Origin: a virus
Strand: one strand, 5' to 3'
Length of the DNA stretch: 26,000 nucleotides
Virus record (IMG/VR): IMGVR_UViG_3300033571_006626
Location: 1 to 26,000 of that record
This document shows positions 3,952 to 23,268 of this stretch, one piece after another. How positions within the stretch are numbered: position 1 is the stretch's first letter; each line of letters begins with the position of its first letter. The translations under genes and the position numbers were made by a program. Under the pieces are notes generated by a model. It searched no databases and was not told the origin of the DNA. It worked only from the letters and a program-made list of their open reading frames with translations.

Positions 3952-4287
3952 TTAGTCGCCAGCGCCCGTCTGCAACACGGTCATCACAACCGAGCCAGCA
4001 CCGGTATTCTGCACCAGCTTAACGGCAGTGACGGGATAGTCCACATATGCCGCCAGCGTACCGGTTTTGGATGCCAGATCGGTGATGTTGTACCAAGTAC
4101 CGCTCGAAGGAAGGTAGCCCGGAGCCAGCACATTATCCAGCGTGTACTGGACAGTGTAATTGACGGTGCCGGTCACCGCGCAGCCAATCGAGGTCTGGAA
4201 CTGGGTGGCGAAGGTGTCGAGAGCGACGATGTCGCTGGTGACTGCACCACCACTGGCGTTAGAGGTCGAACGAGTAATGGGGTACAT
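3952..4287 (-). CDS. Small virion structural protein, unknown family
   Basis: 111 residues, ATG at 4287 after AAGGACTAAGCC. The protein is Thr/Ser/Val-rich with alternating hydrophobic residues (VNYTVQYTLDNV, then VTAVKLVQNTGAG), predicting an all-beta fold without cysteine clusters or membrane segments. Similar short beta proteins sit beside tail-adaptor genes in podoviruses from environmental surveys and are usually listed as structural. Eleven bases separate its stop from the next start (3940), so it is co-translated with the tail adaptor-like gene. A minor tail or decoration role is an inference. Confidence 0.6.
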   Translation of the reverse strand: MYPITRSTSNASGGAVTSDIVALDTFATQFQTSIGCAVTGTVNYTVQYTLDNVLAPGYLPSSGTWYNITDLASKTGTLAAYVDYPVTAVKLVQNTGAGSVVMTVLQTGAGD

Positions 4288-4290
4288 GGC

Positions 4291-4452
4291 TTAGTCCTTC
4301 CCTTTGCGGGCAACAGCCGCATTATCTACCAGATTGGGATAGGGCCTACCAGCGGCTCTAGCCCGCGCCTTGGCCTGCTGCACCTGCTTGTGGCCTAGGT
4401 GTTTTGTTTCATGCCCTTTAGGGAGGGCCTTGTCCCAGAATTCTTTTGCCAT
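4291..4452 (-). CDS. 53-residue basic protein of phage late operon
   Basis: The ATG at 4452 lies one base after the stop of the DUF6321-like gene and the TAA lies at 4291-4293, three bases before the next start. The product (MAKEFWDKALPKGHETKHL... AKARARAAGRPYPNLVDN...) has many Lys/Arg/His and an Ala-Arg helix ending in GRPYPNLVDN, a motif I recognise from environmental phage small proteins. The ribosome site is weak, suggesting translational coupling to the gene before it. No function is known. Its basic character and its place beside two other short basic genes suggest a nucleic-acid or capsid-interior role, which is speculation. Confidence 0.72.
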   Translation of the reverse strand: MAKEFWDKALPKGHETKHLGHKQVQQAKARARAAGRPYPNLVDNAAVARKGKD

Positions 4453-7992: not shown

Positions 7993-8877
7993 TCAGTTCA
8001 TTCGGCCTTCTTTTTTCAGGGCGAGTTTGTTGCGACCATACTCTTCCGGGGTCATCCCCATCATGCTGGCCATTTCGCGCTCTTCAGGAGTCAGAGTGAC
8101 CCGGTTAGGGCGCGTCCCGGTTGCAGTGCCACTGCGTGAGACAGGGGCTGCCGGAGGGGCGGAGCGGCGCTGCACAGGCCTTGCCGCAGAAGACGAGGCG
8201 TCTTCATATCTGTCACGGCTGCGGATGCGGAGCGTGTCCTCAATCGACGCAAAATAATCGTCGGTGTCGGGATCAATCCCATCAGCAACAGCGAGGTTAT
8301 GAGCGGCCAACATCTTCTGGTAGAGGCGATTGTCGGTCGCAAACTGCGGATTGCGGCGTACCCAATCAGCCGAGCGCGGCGAAAGCTGCGAAGCGAGGGC
8401 CTCGACAGGATCAGCCGTGTACGGGCGCGGAGCTTCGCCACGGGGGGCGTTTTCCAGAGCCTGCTTGCCCTGCTCAAGCTGAAGCAGCTTGGCAGCGTTT
8501 GACGACATCTCAGCCTGAATTTCGGCAGCGATGTCATAGTCACCAGCGGCCATCGCATCGCGATAGTTGGCCTTCAGGATCGAGTTGGTCTGATTGACCG
8601 TTTCAATGGCATTTGTGACGAGGTGCAGGTTATTGTCCTGCATCTCGACCTGCGCCTGATAGGCAGTCTGGGTGGCCTCATTAGCGCGGCGCTCAGCTTC
8701 TGCGCGGGCCTGACGCTCACGCTCAAGCTGCTCCTTGAGGGTCTCAAGACTGTTTTCGATAGGATCGTCGTTCTTCGCGACCTCCTCAGCCTTCTCGACA
8801 ACTACCGTCTCCTCGACGGGAGCGTCATCGGTCAGTTCGATCTCGATAGGATCATCGTTCTTGTCATCGATATTCAT
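7993..8877 (-). CDS. Putative capsid scaffolding protein
   Basis: 294 residues, ATG 8877 with AAGGAGG five bases upstream. Residues 1-40 are very acidic (repeated NDDPIE). Residues about 42-145 are predicted coiled coil, rich in Glu, Gln, Ala and Arg (LKEQLERERQARAEAERRAN). Residues about 150-225 carry a conserved block (SADWVRRNPQFATDNRLYQK), followed by a Pro/Ser/Arg-rich linker and a basic C-terminal helix with LTPEEREMASMMGMTPEEY. An acidic start, coiled coil and basic C-terminal coat-binding helix is the usual scaffold architecture, and the gene lies between portal and capsid. The function is inferred from architecture and order. Confidence 0.72.
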   Translation of the reverse strand: MNIDDKNDDPIEIELTDDAPVEETVVVEKAEEVAKNDDPIENSLETLKEQLERERQARAEAERRANEATQTAYQAQVEMQDNNLHLVTNAIETVNQTNSILKANYRDAMAAGDYDIAAEIQAEMSSNAAKLLQLEQGKQALENAPRGEAPRPYTADPVEALASQLSPRSADWVRRNPQFATDNRLYQKMLAAHNLAVADGIDPDTDDYFASIEDTLRIRSRDRYEDASSSAARPVQRRSAPPAAPVSRSGTATGTRPNRVTLTPEEREMASMMGMTPEEYGRNKLALKKEGRMN

Positions 8878-11050: not shown

Positions 11051-14000
11051 CTACTTCTTTTTACTGCCCTTAGCAATCATCAAGGCCCTGCGGACTGCGC
11101 CGCCCTTCTTAAATCCGTACTTGGGCTGGTTCTCCATGCCCATCATGACGCTGTCCAAGAAACGCTGATTGATCGGCTGGACCTGCTTCTGCTCCTCAAA
11201 CAGCTTGCGGGCAGTGGCACGGCCCAGAGTGTCTTCAGAGTAAGGGTGAACGATCTGACCAGCCTTGGTTGGCTTCGACACCATCTCTTCGATGACATCG
11301 GGAGCCGCATAGTGGCGCTGCACCAGTGGCACATCCATGACATACTCACCGCTGGTGTAAGTCGGATAGGTCGAGTGCTCGAATGCGCGCTCAGCCCCCG
11401 GCAGCTTTTCCGAAGACAGTTTGACGATCCGGTGGCCAATCTTGTTACCGCCGACGCCCTTAAGGTCAGGATCGGTAATGGCAGCACGGGTCACGCCGAC
11501 CTCAGGGAAGCCCTTCTTGAGCCAGTCCGCCTTGTCCATGAACTTAACGATCATGGTGCGGTGAGTGCCAGTCAGGTTGCCTGCTTCGGGACGAGCGAAT
11601 TCGCTGGCCTCCTTGGCGTTCTCCAGACCCGGCCACGCCTTCAAAGCATCGAGATGAGCCTTAAGCTTCCTCGGCTCCTTCTTGATGCTGGCCTCAAGGT
11701 GGTCGCCGCGCTTCAGGGCAGCATCGAACTCCCGCAGGTGCTTCTTGTCGATCCCGGCATTCGGGATTTGCGCCATGAGCGCGTCGAACATGTTGTGCGA
11801 GGAATTAACGGCTGACGGGCCCATTGGCGAAAATGCGCCAAAGACCTCATGCCCCGCCTCTTCCGCAGCCCGGATTTTGTTCTCAAACGCGGTCGAGTGA
11901 CCGGGAGCATTGCCCCAAACATACTTGGGATTGGGCTCAAGCATGAACTTGGTGCCTGCATGCAGGTCCACCGGCCACGCCAGTTCCTTGTCGTTAATGT
12001 GCGTCAGGCGTCCGAAGTTGGACAGATCGCCGCCCATGTTGATGAAAACGCCGCCCTTGCCGCGCTGATAGAAGTCCTCCCACGACTTCTTCTCCGGCTT
12101 CTTCATCGAGATGCCGGGGATGTCGCCAATGGTGGCCTTTACGTCCTTGGCAGGCAGCGACTGCTTGATGTTGTACAGGCTGCCAACGCCTGTCTCCATG
12201 CCGACAGGCGACTTGTACGAGGCAGCGAACTTCAGCGCCTTTTGGACGCTTGCAGGGTCCTCGCTGAGCGGGCTGTGGATGCGCTTGAGGTGCTGCATGT
12301 ACTGCTTGAAGCGAGGCGTATCGATCTCGCCGCCATCAGCGTAGCCCTCAACCTCACCACCCTGAGCGTAGGCCGGGAAGCCCTTCTTCAGGATGCTTTC
12401 GCGCATCTTGGGGGTGATGCGGATGGCGTGGAGAGTCGTTTTCGCAAACGGCTTTTCGCTCCTGACGCCGCTGGTAACAGTGCCTTCTTCTTCGGGCTCC
12501 CAATCATAAAAATTGGAGTTACTTGCGTTAGAATGCGAAACCACCGACTGCGACAATGTGGCCTCAGGATCATGCATCTTCGCAAGCCGCAGCGCCCGCT
12601 TGGGGATCATGCGGTCATACATCTCAAACGGCCACTTTTCTCCCATTTGGAGATCGACACCGGATAGTTTGCGCCAATCTCTGTAGGGAGATGTGTACCG
12701 ACCCATTACAACGTGATCACCATAAGCTTCCCTATAGGCACGCTTGATCGGCTCGTATTCTTCAAGAATTCCTTGATGACGAGCATGAGTAGACGGATTT
12801 TGCGTAATCGACTCTCGGACGATATCGCGGGTCATATCGCGGGCCATCTGCTCTTCGTCTTGCGAGTATTCGGCTCCGAGTTTGCGCTCATGCCAAAGAC
12901 CCATGCGGCGGGCGACATCATTGTCGATAAGACGCTCTATAAATTCAGAATGGGCCTGCTTGGCGTCCTCAAAGCGTTTTTGAGCCTCTTCCCCAGAAAT
13001 CCCTTCTCCAGCGACAATCCGCTCGGCAACGCCTTTGCCAAAGTGATCGACTAGCTTCTCTGTCTCAATATCTTCTTGATCAAAAATATTACTGCCGCTC
13101 TTGTCGGTCACGACAATGTTATGGGTGCCGTCTTCGTTTTTCTCATGGAAAATGTCTTGGACATGCTTGGCCAAATTGTACCGATCAACAATGGTGCTGC
13201 CCGGTGACCAAGCCAGCTTGTCGTGCCCCTGCTGCACCGCTTCGCGCAAAGCGCGCTTCAGGCCCAGATCAACCCAATCTTCGGTCTTGGTGACGTAAGG
13301 CGCTTCACTGATGCCCTCTTCGGGGGCAAAGCCACGCCTGCGCCCCTGCTGCGCCCAGTCGCTCTGAAGCTCATCAAGGTGCAGGACCTTCTCGCCCTCT
13401 TCGTCCTGACGGTCTTTGACCATAAGGCTGGCCAAAACGTCTGGCTCACCGCCAAAGTGAACAGGCACACCCTTGAACATGTCACCGTTGCCATGCTTGA
13501 GCAGGATTTCGCGATAGTTCTCACCGCCCGGAAGAGTGAGCCCCTCATGGTGCGGAAAGCCCTGCCACGCATTGCGCCGCTCAGCAGCATGGCGGACGCT
13601 CATCTCGCGCCTTCTGGCATTGACAGTCGCCGGGTCCATGCCCTGATCACGCTCATCCCAGAACTGCTGACGTTCCAGATAGTGCTTGTCGCTAAGCTCC
13701 CTTACGCTAGGCTCGTTATCCTTACGGTAACGGAACACCTTCTCCTGAATTGGAGGGATCATCGAGTCTAGATGCTTGGCGATTTCATCGCGGGTTACCT
13801 CTGGCTCATTGCCAAAGGCGTAATCATACTCACCCCAGTGCAATTCTGACGGCTTCACGCCCTTGTTGAGCAGCATGCCACGGAACTGCTCAGGAGTTCC
13901 CCGCTCCTGAGGCAGCCCGGCGGCAGTCACCGCAGCGTGACTGTAAAGGCCCAAATTATTCGGTTGGGCGTAGGGGTTTTCGTCTTCGACTTCGCCCCCA

Positions 14001-15169
14001 GCGGCGTAACGATCAGCGCCTGATCCATCTAGGCGATGGAAGATTTCACCAATCCAGTGCTCATGCGGCATAATGGCCCCGCCAGAAGCGGCGTGGCGCA
14101 TGGAACGCATGACATCTTCATGGGTCGTCTCATCGCCGCCAGCCTGATCCCAAACGGCATGGTGTGCCAGATGCTGGTAATATGGAGAAAGGCGATCAGG
14201 AAGCTCCAAGCCCATAGCCTCTTGGCGCGCAGTCAGGCGGTTGACAGCCTCAACACCGCCAGCACCGCCCTTGCGGGACAAAAACCGTGTCGCCTCCTTG
14301 GTAGGGCGACCGGTGTGAAGGATAATTTGCCGTGCATCGAGTGTGGGCTGGTCGCCGCGCCCCAGCAAAGAGGCATAGAAGCCAGACTTAGACGGCCCAA
14401 TACCGCGAATACCGCTGGTAAAGTCGCGCCATTCCGCAGGATGGCTTGCCTTCAAGCGGCCAGCATGAATAAGCTCAGAAACCCTGCTTTCGTTGCCCGG
14501 AAGATGAACTGCAGCCCACGACAGCGCATCAGGAATATCTTTTTCATGCTTGCCGAAGGGTGCCATGACGCGAACGGCGTCTTCAATCGCCGCATGGTGT
14601 ACCTGTCCCTTTTCGGCAGCGTCAAGATAGGCTTGACCAGCAGGGGAATGCAGCCATTCACCAAAAGCGCCTTCTGGGCGGATCATTTCATCATGGAAAT
14701 CATGCAAAGGTAGCCCAGCTTGGCGCACCTTATCCGTCTTTGCGGCCCTGCGCTGAATGCTGGAGCGCGTGATTGTGTACGCCTTGATGAGATCACGAGG
14801 TGTAAGGCCCTGATCAGATGCCTTGCGCGCAATCTCGTCCATAAAGTCGCCAAACTTGAGCACATGCGATGGGATTTCCCGCATATACCCAAGGTCAGAT
14901 TGGACATCCTCTAGCGGTCGCCAGTTCCATTCGGAGATGTGCGATGTTTCCGGGTCACGATAAGGCTCAACATCACCCCCGGCAGCATACTGGCGCGGCA
15001 TCGGCACCCCAAATGCTTCATGCATAGCCGGGGAGTGCTCAGGAACCACTACTTCAGGCGCAGGCATGCCCAAATCAGGCAGAGGAACACGCGCAAACTT
15101 AGGATCAACGAAGGCAGCGACGGACCTTGCAGCCATAATGGCCTTACGGATGGCCTTCGGGTCCCTCAT
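11051..15169 (-). CDS. Giant multi-module (polyvalent-type) phage protein, 1372 residues
   Basis: ATG 15169 follows the portal stop by five bases. Short linkers of the form xYAxGG[DE][VI] at about residues 60-67, 387-394, 934-940 and 943-949 divide it into three modules, and a GFKKGGAV tag stands near the C-terminus. Module 1 (about 70-386) contains SGIRGIGPSKSGFYASLLG (252-270), resembling a helix-hairpin-helix, followed by TLDARQI. Module 2 (about 396-931) has LHLDELQSDWAQQGRRRGF (596-614), SEAPYVTKTEDWVDLGLKRAL, then KLAWSPGSTIVDRYNLAK (651-668) and YDRMIPKR with a RITPKMRES ending. This block is found in large phage polyvalent proteins. Module 3 (about 951-1350) has GGVFINMGGDLSNFGRL and SPMGPSAVNSSHNMFDALM, also seen in such proteins. 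The family is thought to be ejected into the host with the DNA; the individual activities are unproven. Confidence 0.8.
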   Translation of the reverse strand: MRDPKAIRKAIMAARSVAAFVDPKFARVPLPDLGMPAPEVVVPEHSPAMHEAFGVPMPRQYAAGGDVEPYRDPETSHISEWNWRPLEDVQSDLGYMREIPSHVLKFGDFMDEIARKASDQGLTPRDLIKAYTITRSSIQRRAAKTDKVRQAGLPLHDFHDEMIRPEGAFGEWLHSPAGQAYLDAAEKGQVHHAAIEDAVRVMAPFGKHEKDIPDALSWAAVHLPGNESRVSELIHAGRLKASHPAEWRDFTSGIRGIGPSKSGFYASLLGRGDQPTLDARQIILHTGRPTKEATRFLSRKGGAGGVEAVNRLTARQEAMGLELPDRLSPYYQHLAHHAVWDQAGGDETTHEDVMRSMRHAASGGAIMPHEHWIGEIFHRLDGSGADRYAAGGEVEDENPYAQPNNLGLYSHAAVTAAGLPQERGTPEQFRGMLLNKGVKPSELHWGEYDYAFGNEPEVTRDEIAKHLDSMIPPIQEKVFRYRKDNEPSVRELSDKHYLERQQFWDERDQGMDPATVNARRREMSVRHAAERRNAWQGFPHHEGLTLPGGENYREILLKHGNGDMFKGVPVHFGGEPDVLASLMVKDRQDEEGEKVLHLDELQSDWAQQGRRRGFAPEEGISEAPYVTKTEDWVDLGLKRALREAVQQGHDKLAWSPGSTIVDRYNLAKHVQDIFHEKNEDGTHNIVVTDKSGSNIFDQEDIETEKLVDHFGKGVAERIVAGEGISGEEAQKRFEDAKQAHSEFIERLIDNDVARRMGLWHERKLGAEYSQDEEQMARDMTRDIVRESITQNPSTHARHQGILEEYEPIKRAYREAYGDHVVMGRYTSPYRDWRKLSGVDLQMGEKWPFEMYDRMIPKRALRLAKMHDPEATLSQSVVSHSNASNSNFYDWEPEEEGTVTSGVRSEKPFAKTTLHAIRITPKMRESILKKGFPAYAQGGEVEGYADGGEIDTPRFKQYMQHLKRIHSPLSEDPASVQKALKFAASYKSPVGMETGVGSLYNIKQSLPAKDVKATIGDIPGISMKKPEKKSWEDFYQRGKGGVFINMGGDLSNFGRLTHINDKELAWPVDLHAGTKFMLEPNPKYVWGNAPGHSTAFENKIRAAEEAGHEVFGAFSPMGPSAVNSSHNMFDALMAQIPNAGIDKKHLREFDAALKRGDHLEASIKKEPRKLKAHLDALKAWPGLENAKEASEFARPEAGNLTGTHRTMIVKFMDKADWLKKGFPEVGVTRAAITDPDLKGVGGNKIGHRIVKLSSEKLPGAERAFEHSTYPTYTSGEYVMDVPLVQRHYAAPDVIEEMVSKPTKAGQIVHPYSEDTLGRATARKLFEEQKQVQPINQRFLDSVMMGMENQPKYGFKKGGAVRRALMIAKGSKKK

Positions 15170-20751: not shown

Positions 20752-20976
20752 TCAGTGCATCGCGCCCTGCTGCTCCCATGCCTGCTGGCTGCACAGTTGG
20801 CGGTAGGCGCGCTCGGTGCCGCTGTTGTACTGCTCGACGGTCAGCGCGGTAACATCAGTGTCGGCATGCTCGAAGCGGTGCTTGTCGCAGTCGGCCAGCA
20901 CGGCCTCGGCCCATGTGGGATAGGTGGCGACTACTGCGATGGCGATGCCGTGGCTGCGGGCGATGACGTTATACAT
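20752..20976 (-). CDS. Small leftward early-type protein, unknown
   Basis: 74 residues, ATG 20976 with a strong AAGGAG eight bases upstream. Product MYNVIARSHGIAIAVVATYP... is a small mixed protein with Gln/Cys/Trp toward its C-terminus (YRQLCSQQAWEQQG) and no membrane segment. It has its own promoter candidate with a dyad operator and its own terminator (20381), so it forms a separate one-gene unit, apart from the late block. No family recognised. Its place opposite the rightward early operon suggests a regulatory or early take-over function, which is inference. Confidence 0.75.
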   Translation of the reverse strand: MYNVIARSHGIAIAVVATYPTWAEAVLADCDKHRFEHADTDVTALTVEQYNSGTERAYRQLCSQQAWEQQGAMH

Positions 20977-21002
20977 AAGGTGTGCTCCTTGTTGACACCC
21001 AA

Positions 21003-21031
21003 CACTTAGGGCACCTCGCCCTACAGGTCAA
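21003..21031 (-). promoter_or_regulatory. Leftward promoter with 17-bp dyad operator (site 1)
   Basis: Minus strand: TTGACC (21031-21026), a 17-bp spacer, then TAAGTG (21008-21003). The dyad TAGGGC-GAGGT-GCCCTA (21023-21007) fills the spacer and overlaps the -10 by two bases, so binding would block RNA polymerase. It reads toward the gene at 20976. Confidence 0.7.
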
Positions 21032-21089
21032 TGCGGAAAATTCGATCAAAAGAAAATTATTGATCAGTTTTTCCCATGTACGATTTCTC

Positions 21090-21118
21090 TTGCTAGGGCG
21101 ACATGCCCTAGTTATAAG
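21090..21118 (+). promoter_or_regulatory. Rightward promoter with 17-bp dyad operator (site 2)
   Basis: TTGCTA (21090-21095), a 17-bp spacer, then TATAAG (21113-21118). The dyad TAGGGC-GACAT-GCCCTA (21094-21110, extended to C/G at 21093/21111) lies within the spacer and touches the -35. It reads toward the gene at 21147. Confidence 0.7.
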
Positions 21119-21146
21119 GGGGCATCAACCAAGCAAGGAGCCGCAC

Positions 21147-21332
21147 ATGACCAAGACCGAACTAAAGCACAGCGCGCAGGACCGGCTGCTGGGCTTCATG
21201 GCCGAGGCCGTCTACCGCGCCGAAGATGAAGGCGACAAGGAGATGGCCGCAGAGCTGCTGCGTCAAGCGCGCCGCGCCATGACCATGTTCGGCGTGGTCA
21301 GCTATCCCGGCCTTGAAGCCCCCAACGCATAA
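21147..21332 (+). CDS. Small acidic/helical early protein, unknown
   Basis: 61 residues from ATG 21147, chosen because AAGGAG stands six bases upstream; the frame is open further left but has no signal there. Product MTKTELKHSAQDRLLGFMAE... is mainly one or two helices with EAVYRAEDEGDKEMAAELLRQ and ends PGLEAPNA. It is the first gene after the rightward promoter with operator site 2. No family recognised. Confidence 0.72.
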   Translation: MTKTELKHSAQDRLLGFMAEAVYRAEDEGDKEMAAELLRQARRAMTMFGVVSYPGLEAPNA

Positions 21333-21344
21333 GGAGCACACGAC

Positions 21345-21599
21345 ATGATCACGCCCCTATTAAACATCAACGGCAGCAGCGCCGACGTTCTCATCAATCC
21401 GCGCCTAGCCGCCATGGACCACCTGATGGATGCCATTGAGGCCTTGTCGCAGGCAGTGCCAAACGGGCGCGACTATCCCGGCAACAGTACCGCCTGCCTT
21501 GCCGACCGCGAGGAACACTATGACCGCATCAAGGCCATCAAGGCCTTGCGAGAGGCCATCTATGCCGAGGCCATCGCCATCAAGGAGCAGCAAGCATGA
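21345..21599 (+). CDS. Small early phage protein with NGRDYPGNS motif
   Basis: 84 residues, ATG 21345 with AAGGAG upstream. The start MITPLLNINGSSADVLINP, the central AVPNGRDYPGNS (about 38-49) and the closing helix match a family of short phage proteins found beside early genes in many podo- and siphophages; no function is established. It is predicted as two helices around the PNGRDYPG turn. It overlaps the following gene by ATGA. Confidence 0.78.
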   Translation: MITPLLNINGSSADVLINPRLAAMDHLMDAIEALSQAVPNGRDYPGNSTACLADREEHYDRIKAIKALREAIYAEAIAIKEQQA

Positions 21600-21823
21600 T
21601 CGACTACAGCCACCTCAACGCCCTCGAATTAGGCCTGTCGCATGAGCGCGAGCGCCTGCGCCTCGCCCGCAGCCAGCAAGAGATCGCATACCGCGAAATC
21701 TGGGTGCGCCAGTATGAACGCGAGATCGCCAGCGAGCGCGAGCTGCTCGGCCTCCCGCCCGAAGGCGATGCGCCCATGACCCTCGATGAAATCTTGGCCG
21801 AGCTTGAGGGGCCGCTGGCCTGA
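21596..21823 (+). CDS. Small coiled-coil early protein, unknown
   Basis: 75 residues, ATG 21596 in an ATGA overlap with the previous gene, so translation is probably coupled. Arg/Glu-rich segments (LSHERERLRLARSQQEIAYR, then YEREIASERELLG) predict a long coiled coil, ending in an acidic helix LDEILAELEGPLA. No conserved family recognised. A rightward terminator follows ten bases after its stop, closing the first three-gene unit. Confidence 0.68.
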   Translation: MIDYSHLNALELGLSHERERLRLARSQQEIAYREIWVRQYEREIASERELLGLPPEGDAPMTLDEILAELEGPLA

Positions 21824-21832
21824 TCGGATAAG

Positions 21833-21863
21833 GCGATCATCCTTCACCGGGTGATCGCTTTTT
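21833..21863 (+). terminator. Intrinsic terminator after the first rightward unit
   Basis: GCGATCATCC (21833-21842) pairs with GGGTGATCGC (21849-21858), a 10-bp stem with one wobble around a short loop, followed by TTTTT (21859-21863). It ends the 21147-21823 transcript just before the third promoter. Confidence 0.88.
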
Positions 21864-21868
21864 CCCTC

Positions 21869-21897
21869 TTGCATGTTAGGGCATCTCGCCCTATCTA
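21869..21897 (+). promoter_or_regulatory. Rightward promoter with 17-bp dyad operator (site 3)
   Basis: TTGCAT (21869-21874), a 17-bp spacer, then TATCTA (21892-21897). The dyad TAGGGC-ATCTC-GCCCTA (21877-21893) lies in the spacer and overlaps the -10 by two bases, the same register as site 1. It follows the terminator directly and reads toward the gene at 21924. Confidence 0.72.
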
Positions 21898-21923: not shown

Positions 21924-22148
21924 ATGAGGCCCAACGCAGCATACGGATCAGATATCGTCATCATCAAAGAGGCGGTCGGCTGGTCTGTCTGGTCACAGAA
22001 CGACATCATCGCCAACGTCACCCGCGAGGGGCTCGACCTGCTCGTCTACGGAGCGGTCAGCAAGGGGCTGTCGGTTTACAATGAGGATACAGAGCAATGG
22101 CTTGCAGGCACCCTCGCCCAACTCGACCCTACCCAAGAGGTACCATAA
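21924..22148 (+). CDS. Small early protein, unknown
   Basis: 74 residues from ATG 21924, chosen because AAGGAG stands upstream; the open frame to the left crosses the promoter. Product MRPNAAYGSDIVIIKEAVGW... is a mixed beta/helical small protein with SVWSQNDIIANVTREGLDLL and an acidic end; no motif recognised. It is the first gene under promoter site 3. Confidence 0.68.
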   Translation: MRPNAAYGSDIVIIKEAVGWSVWSQNDIIANVTREGLDLLVYGAVSKGLSVYNEDTEQWLAGTLAQLDPTQEVP

Positions 22149-22173: not shown

Positions 22174-22202
22174 CTAAAACGGGACACATTGTCACGTTTT
22201 AG
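22174..22202. promoter_or_regulatory. 29-bp near-perfect dyad (operator or bidirectional terminator)
   Basis: CTAAAACGGGACA - CAT - TGTCACGTTTTAG: 13-bp arms with one mismatch around a three-base centre. It lies alone between the genes ending at 22148 and starting at 22259. It is different from the 17-bp dyads. Flanking A4/T4 inside the arms would also suit a weak bidirectional terminator. No promoter is clear next to it. Confidence 0.6.
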
Positions 22203-22258: not shown

Positions 22259-22576
22259 ATGATCACCGTAATCTCGAACAAGACCAACCTGTGCGACATC
22301 GACCAACTGGGCGAGATCAAGGCGCAGATCGCGGACCTTCAGGCGGTCGCTGACAAGCTTGCCAAGGGCATCAAGGAACTGGGCGCGGGCAAGCATGAGG
22401 GCGACCTGTTCAGCGCCACTGTGAGCGTGGTTGATGAGCGTTGGTCGGCAGACCCGAAGGCTATCAGCGCCAAGCTCAAGGAACTGATGGGCGAGACTGC
22501 CTTCGACCGGTTCTGCGCAGCCAACCAGAAGAAGACCGCTGGCTACACCAGCCTCACCCTCGCAGCGCGTAATTGA
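22259..22576 (+). CDS. Helical early phage protein, unknown (conserved family)
   Basis: 105 residues, ATG 22259 with TTAAGGAG upstream. The N-terminal part is a coiled coil (DQLGEIKAQIADLQAVADKL), then GKHEGDLFSATVSVVDERW, which resembles a beta hairpin, then a C-terminal helix and TSLTLAARN strand. This layout (helix, Glu-Gly-x-L/F strand, variable helix, final TVxVxA strand) recurs in small proteins of many phages near early genes and has no known function. It follows the 29-bp dyad directly. Confidence 0.75.
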   Translation: MITVISNKTNLCDIDQLGEIKAQIADLQAVADKLAKGIKELGAGKHEGDLFSATVSVVDERWSADPKAISAKLKELMGETAFDRFCAANQKKTAGYTSLTLAARN

Positions 22577-22923: not shown

Positions 22924-23045
22924 GCACTGTGCATGCGCTGATCGTGGTGTGTGAGATCGTCTTGCTGGTGGGCTTGTCGATCTTCATTTACCGGACCATC
23001 CGGGAAGCCATCAGGATTTACCGGGACATGTATGACGAGGAATGA
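22920..23045 (+). CDS. 41-residue single-pass membrane peptide
   Basis: ATG 22920 overlaps the previous stop (ATGA); TTGGAG stands upstream. Residues about 4-25 (VHALIVVCEIVLLVGLSIFI) are one transmembrane helix, followed by a basic/acidic tail RTIREAIRIYRDMYDEE that is probably cytoplasmic. Too short for a holin by itself; no family recognised. It overlaps the HTH gene by 14 bases. Confidence 0.72.
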   Translation: MSTVHALIVVCEIVLLVGLSIFIYRTIREAIRIYRDMYDEE

Positions 23046-23268
23046 GTATAGGGCCCTGATCAGGCGTTTGGGGCTGAGGCAAGTAGACGTAGCATGGATT
23101 GCCGGGGTGTCGGGACGGCAGGCGAAACGCTGGTCAAGCGGAGCCTGTCCTGTCCCGCGCTCCGTTTTTTTGTTGCTGCGGGCGCTGGAGGATGGTCGCC
23201 TTCACCCGTACTGGTTCAGGCGCAACATCCCTGAGCCGATCCCTTACAGCGACAGCGAGAGGCCCTAA
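23032..23268 (+). CDS. Helix-turn-helix protein, candidate phage regulator
   Basis: 78 residues from ATG 23032; the longer open frame to the left overlaps the membrane peptide gene and reads as noise. Residues about 17-37 (LRQVDVAWIAGVSGRQAKRW) form a helix-turn-helix with Gln-Val-Asp at the first helix and Gly in the turn, similar to XRE/Cro or YdaS-type regulators. It is the last gene of the rightward block and ends convergently, sharing bases with the stop of the leftward gene at 23265. It is the only DNA-binding regulator visible and thus a candidate for the protein binding the TAGGGC dyads; unproven. Confidence 0.7.
   Translation: MTRNEYRALIRRLGLRQVDVAWIAGVSGRQAKRWSSGACPVPRSVFLLLRALEDGRLHPYWFRRNIPEPIPYSDSERP

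Follow-up and report, generated by a model that had tools for sequence, protein, structure and literature searches.

A promoter dyad dispersed across a clade of phages, a probable operator of an Aca1-like mini-HTH repressor

Introduction

Aca10 and Aca2 are small HTH autorepressors, and the inverted repeats that they use as operators overlap the -35 and -10 boxes (PMC9410906, PMC9410881, PMC8434428). The DNA bound by Aca1, in turn, contains the palindrome TTAGGCACAATGTGCCTAA, that is, TAGGCAC-N3-GTGCCTA (PMC9410881). We compare here with these systems a 26,000 nt stretch of viral DNA (positions 1–26,000 of the IMG/VR record IMGVR_UViG_3300033571_006626; hereafter, the window), for which an earlier note reported three promoters sharing the 17-bp dyad TAGGGC-N5-GCCCTA. 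The observation proved to be genuine, and the dyad is well conserved and of wider occurrence than the note supposed. The architecture, which resembles that of the autorepressors of anti-CRISPR operons, is best read as a regulon of the Aca1 type, autorepressed and spread over several promoters.

Results

Three intergenic dyads at promoters in both directions

An exact scan of the window for TAGGGC-N5-GCCCTA retrieved three sites (21,007–21,023, 21,094–21,110 and 21,877–21,893) and no others, all of them intergenic; the 6-bp arms are the same in the three and the N5 differs, in agreement with the positions, arms and differing centres given in the earlier note. None of 120 dinucleotide shuffles of the window produced a dyad family in which one pair of 6-bp arms occurred three times at a constant spacing. 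Site 2 reads TAGGGCGACATGCCCTA on the plus strand and site 3 reads TAGGGCGAGATGCCCTA on the minus strand, as originally assigned; however, site 1 (TAGGGCGAGGTGCCCTA) is also on the minus strand when the consensus of the note is applied.

As had been proposed, each dyad lies within or overlaps the spacer of a -35/-10 pair. The spacer taken up by dyad 1 belongs to a leftward promoter (-35 TTGACC, 21,026–21,031; -10 TAAGTG, 21,003–21,008), and that taken up by dyad 3 to a rightward one (-35 TTGCAT, 21,869–21,874; -10 TATCTA, 21,892–21,897). The placement of both is ideal (TTGACC-tg-dyad and TTGCAT-gt-dyad), and the -10 box begins with the last TA of the dyad. Dyad 2 overlaps the -35 box of its promoter (TTGCTA, 21,090–21,095), and the -10 box (TATAAG, 21,113–21,118) starts 2 bp past it. 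Of the -10 hexamers, that of site 2 is good, whereas TAAGTG (site 1) and TATCTA (site 3) match weakly, so that the promoters of the window are convincing mainly because the identical spacing between -35 box and dyad recurs in relatives, among which the arrangement of the dyad 1 promoter is also found.

The genes behind these promoters start at 20,976 (minus strand), 21,147 and 21,924 (plus strand), as the note had claimed. Promoter 1 precedes a 74-aa orphan gene (20,752–20,976, minus strand), homologs of which follow this operator also in L063/L142 and L119/L147. Promoter 2 precedes a run of three orphan genes on the plus strand, of 61 aa (21,147–21,332; without Pfam or PHROG match), 84 aa (21,345–21,599) and 75 aa (21,596–21,823), and promoter 3 precedes another 74-aa orphan gene (21,924–22,148, plus strand). 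In several relatives, the slot of the 84-aa gene is occupied by ardC (PF08401 plus PF18818); the divergent slot contains ardC in some phages, other orphans in others and the three small orphans (21,147–21,823) in the window.

Further downstream, a gene for a conserved protein of 105 aa is located at 22,259, and in relatives it has a TAGGGC dyad upstream. In the window, the upstream position (22,174–22,202) holds a different large dyad, CTAAAACGGGACA-CAT-TGTCACGTTTTAG, with 13-bp arms and one mismatch; it is present in single copy, is absent from the relatives that were fetched, and is possibly the operator of the diverged HTH protein encoded at 23,032–23,268 (plus strand; 78 aa, helix RQAKRW). 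Elsewhere in the window, a coding region (1,179–2,152) contains several near-matches, TxGGGCCxGTxGxCCCx, some of them 36 bp apart, which look like a collagen-like or other repeat and not like operators, and the structural region includes an ORF of 1,372 aa (11,051–15,169) without PHROG match.

Conservation of the dyad in relatives

Relatives were gathered by searches with the terminase and early genes, which retrieved many related contigs; duplicates were removed before counting sites, and genes were called with a home-made caller. Near-complete relatives contain the dyad pattern two to six times each (at most one mismatch) and never the reversed control pattern. Altogether, the relatives contain 63 distinct dyad sites, located only at promoters of small genes and none of them (0/63) within a called gene; arms and promoter spacing are conserved, and the scatter over coding regions that the note had named as contrary evidence is not seen. 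Among 36 distinct promoter-oriented 17-mers, there is no variation at six arm positions; a purine always occupies position 7 and a pyrimidine nearly always position 11, and the three central bases vary freely. The distance from the end of the -35 hexamer, mostly TTGAC[AC], to the dyad is 2–3 bp in 47 of 55 promoters, which gives a -35/-10 spacer of 17–18 bp, and the start codon usually follows some 30 bp after the dyad. A second class of promoter, in which the dyad overlaps the -35 box and TATAAG comes just after, as in site 2 of the window, also occurs in L039, L048 and L116. Judged by this sequence conservation, the dyad in the relatives is under selection and is very probably a real operator. 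Of the repressor regulon for early genes in both directions that the note had proposed, the operator shared by promoters in both directions is strongly supported, whereas the early timing and the repression are inferred.

Around 24 unrelated gene families, mostly small orphan genes, start directly behind dyad promoters in this clade; they include the anti-restriction protein ArdC (ArdcN plus zincin domains), the 105-aa protein (22,259 in the window) and about 20 orphans of 46–138 aa, and 19 of the 21 that we tested had no notable NCBIfam or PHROG match. In L149 (G003), the product of one gene behind the operator (8,333–8,578), which adjoins a primase/helicase gene, consists of a DnaA C-terminal DNA-binding domain (PF08299). 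The conserved leader CAACAAGGAGCAAACGAC was considered as a part of the cassette and rejected, being only partly specific, with a Shine-Dalgarno context common to other early genes. In dyad-free relatives (G011 and G016–G019), a search for another shared operator gave no convincing candidate, and the dyad that is repeated in G016 has the look of a tandem repeat.

A 69-aa HTH protein is the candidate regulator

From the sequence comparisons, the protein binding the dyad is probably HTHreg, a 69-aa HTH protein whose gene is itself one of the conserved targets of the operator, and not the HTH protein at 23,032–23,268 that the note had suggested. The recognition helix of HTHreg (RTIRRY) is invariant, and its model is a four-helix HTH (pLDDT 89.7). 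On its own promoter, the gene normally has the dyad (19 of 24 loci, with two mismatches at most); four more loci have a degenerate form, the degenerate site of the G001 group being TTGACA-cg-CAGGGCGAGGTGCCCGTA, and the degeneracy often affects one half-site. The sole HTHreg locus lacking the dyad, L192, is only 46% identical, has a different recognition helix and belongs to a 67.8-kb record without dyads. HTHreg is present in all eight dyad-bearing records of at least 23 kb, and we did not find it in the dyad-free terminase relatives examined, including records of 55 and 60 kb. By synteny with G003, where HTHreg is encoded at 4,159–4,368, in this phage we place the gene outside of the 26-kb fragment, presumably about 9 kb past position 23,268. 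Searches for HTHreg gave no match in INPHARED phages and one partial match only (45%) in GTDB species genomes.

A protein-blind scan links the dyad to a helix signature

Scanning IMG/VR with the 25-bp pattern TTGAC-N3-TAGGGC-N5-GCCCTA, irrespective of the proteins encoded, retrieved 111 stretches, mostly from phages unrelated to the window clade, vs. three with a control palindrome of the same composition and rearranged arms (TGAGGC/GCCTCA). Many of these stretches contain, shortly downstream, a gene for an HTH protein of 55–75 aa whose recognition helix is RTxRR[WY], like that of HTHreg. Of 97 dyad promoters, 41 are followed by such a mini-HTH gene on the same strand within 1.3 kb, vs. none of 96 generic sigma70-like promoters, the loci of the latter being lower in GC (41% vs. 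58%); for around half of the dyad promoters, no RTxRR[WY] gene lies close enough. Controls closer in GC are smaller and agree with this association: no genuine RTxRR[WY] HTH was found in 62 phage loci that have a similar GC and lack the dyad and, within dyad loci, the signature is 29-fold denser downstream of the dyad than elsewhere. Likewise, among HTH relatives found by profile, the signature is present in 52 of 68 from dyad loci and in none of 15 from dyad-free loci (Fisher 2.5e-8, ignoring kinship), although p-values overstate the case because most mini-HTHs form one loose cluster and the loci are not phylogenetically independent.

Among annotated phages, the Bradyrhizobium phage ppBeUSDA76-2 has an RTARRW HTH gene with a perfect dyad upstream. 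In a small check from the protein side, there was no dyad at the corresponding genes of Pan3 (RTVQRW) or of Aeromonas phage 4_D05, in which the signature is absent; the closest annotated phage by terminase, MW202675 (47%), belongs to a dyad-free control set. The first genes behind the 25-bp pattern in unrelated phages are very diverse (77 families for 87 genes) and nearly all lack a known domain. In other dyad phages, the HTH gene has an orphan gene of the same orientation ahead of it, and these orphans had no match to known Acr proteins.

The number and disposition of TAGGGC dyads vary among these phages. The densest dispersed version is that of L222 and L266, which are one contig (IMGVR_UViG_3300023063_000005, 17 kb) with seven plus eleven dyad matches, and L213, L243, and L025 contain five dyads each. 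Overlapping or tandem dyads occur in L034 (6,124–6,691) and L029 (2,567–2,602 and 7,576–7,607; e.g., TAGGGCAATTCGCCCTAGGGCGTCAAGCCCTA), which suggests cooperative binding or terminator-like hairpins.

Relationship to Aca1 and a putative recognition code

A profile of the mini-HTH family (A4) matched Aca1 at 2.5e-6, its best solved relative, followed by Aca10 (5e-6), Aca2 (6e-5), and Aca3 (1.4e-3). HTHreg-type proteins are therefore small HTH proteins homologous to known Aca, which is not the case for any protein of the window, and the inverted repeat is in core promoters, including that of the regulator itself. Conversely, HTHreg is not in an acr operon but stands alone, and we found no known acr in the clade. 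One Aca1-like locus of the control set, L414 (helix RLMRYY), contains TAGGCACATAGTGCCTA within a -35/-10 spacer. Its region 1,008–1,592 is a candidate acr-aca operon, in which the core promoter contains TAGGCAC-N3-GTGCCTA and an ORF of 123 aa precedes the Aca1-like mini-HTH.

In dyads of the TAGGGC group, a helix with a terminal Tyr accompanies a G at position 7 in 11 of 15 cases, and one with a terminal Trp accompanies a C in 21 of 28 and a G in none; in the window clade, with a Tyr helix, position 7 is only G or A. In these sequences, which are related, the pattern looks like a recognition code. We tentatively extend it, with somewhat less than even confidence, to a phage-wide code for the Aca1-like superfamily (RxMRYY for TAGGCAC, RTxRRY for TAGGGC(G/A), and RTxRRW for TAGGGC(C/A)), with a single 17-bp frame inside the -35/-10 spacer and a docking cassette for counter-defence genes. 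If so, the operator and leader would be a docking point for interchangeable counter-defence genes, and a plain DNA search for the cassette would list many new anti-defence genes at once.

Discussion

The identity of the regulator is the main point on which readings of this locus diverge. The HTH protein encoded in the window (23,032–23,268) belongs to the same superfamily as HTHreg, since both match phrog_14076, if only weakly in its case, and in relatives the gene for its homolog is located a few genes downstream of a dyad promoter. Nevertheless, its homologs occur in dyad-free phages where HTHreg was not found, its recognition helix changes from RQAKRW in this phage to RHGRKW in relatives while the dyad remains unchanged, and it has neither the RTxRR[WY] signature nor a dyad of its own. 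Additionally, in the window the gene at 22,259, upstream of it, has lost the TAGGGC dyad and faces the unrelated one at 22,174–22,202, and we found no second dyad near this gene that is common to relatives and could be a target of the HTH protein. Together, these data make this protein an improbable, though not negligible, candidate. A host transcription factor or nucleoid protein is considerably less probable: the host RNA polymerase presumably uses the dyad promoters, but the dyads track an HTH signature borne by the phages and mark the promoter of the phage gene itself. Besides, the promoter-dyad pattern was not found in 385 alphaproteobacterial genomes, although the class of the host may differ and simple rarity is compatible with this result.

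Other alternatives concern the mode of action. C proteins can activate transcription, and the controller protein C.Kpn2I is the nearest fold match by rank, such that a protein binding the spacer might switch the promoters on, in the way of MerR or of restriction controllers. MerR-type promoters need spacers of 19–20 bp, whereas those seen here, deduced from the spacing between -35 box and dyad, are of 17–18 bp, with a -35 close to the consensus and a dyad overlapping the -10 box. All the Aca families of this layout that have been tested repress (PMC9410906). We consequently regard activation as very unlikely. Operators of the CI/Cro type for a lysis-lysogeny decision would agree with the divergent promoters and with the fold class, as the P22 c2 and 434 repressors are among the weak structural matches. 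Against them, no PF00589 integrase match exceeded the cut-off in eight near-complete relative records of up to 60.7 kb, some 11 kb separate the gene of HTHreg from the main operator pair, some phages have it among 5–10 dispersed sites, and the protein is a single domain of 69 aa without a cleavable C-terminal domain. Nothing, then, points to a lysogeny repressor, and this possibility is very slight indeed.

The dyads are thus quite likely to be operators of a phage-encoded Aca1-like mini-HTH repressor, which would be HTHreg in this clade, controlling small genes for counter-defence or takeover. An HTH dimer would bind TAGGGCR-N3-YGCCCTA inside the -35/-10 spacer and, by covering it together with the edge of the -10 box, would repress through steric exclusion, which is the best-supported model, as in all the Aca families tested (PMC9410906). 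In this way, small genes for host takeover or counter-defence, with their strong promoters, would be silenced, and so would the gene of the repressor itself. Upon entry of the naked phage DNA these promoters might fire at once and, as the repressor accumulates, all the dyad promoters would be turned down together; with perfect sites on the targets and a frequently degenerate one at its own gene, the regulator could increase in amount before silencing itself. In this scheme we infer binding, repression, early timing, the presence of HTHreg in this phage and the counter-defence roles, for which ArdC is the one recognisable case. HTHreg would be expected to bind TAGGGCGACATGCCCTA but not TAGGCACAATGTGCCTA, and Aca1 to bind TAGGCACAATGTGCCTA but not TAGGGCGACATGCCCTA, and the proposal names which residues of the mini-HTH read which bases. 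Phage counter-defence genes are hard to find because they are small and share no sequence, and the 25-bp pattern could serve to find genes with which phages counter bacterial defences.

In the literature, we found no description of a TAGGGC-N5-GCCCTA promoter-operator. A conserved early regulatory sequence of archaeal viruses (PMC11065993) concerns archaeal promoters and viruses, whereas the operator described here is palindromic and comes with a candidate repressor and a helix signature. As with the immunity repressor of mycobacteriophages and its stoperators (PMC9283540), a single repressor site is dispersed in many copies over the genome; however, stoperators are asymmetric, also occur in transcribed regions and terminate elongation, whereas the sites described here are symmetric and limited to promoters (0/63 coding). 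With Aca10 and Aca2 the system shares a small HTH protein as candidate regulator and repeats overlapping the -35 and -10 boxes, but the operators of those proteins are repeats of 21 bp and about 20 bp, respectively, and Aca2 has an additional C-terminal dimerisation domain. We do not claim Aca membership for this phage because no operon joining an acr gene and the regulator was found, although the system would work like an Aca system. The closest likeness is to Aca1 (e.g., from Pseudomonas phage JBD30), also a mini-HTH dimer, whose site, within the promoter region, shares the TAGG ends and the frame of 17 bp (PMC9410881). They differ in positions 5–6 of the half-site (CA in Aca1, GC here), in the helix (RxMRYY in Aca1, RTxRR[WY] here) and in that the regulator gene of this clade, with no known acr, is outside of its target operons and would act on several scattered promoters, carrying the Aca theme beyond the single operon to a regulon that is dispersed.
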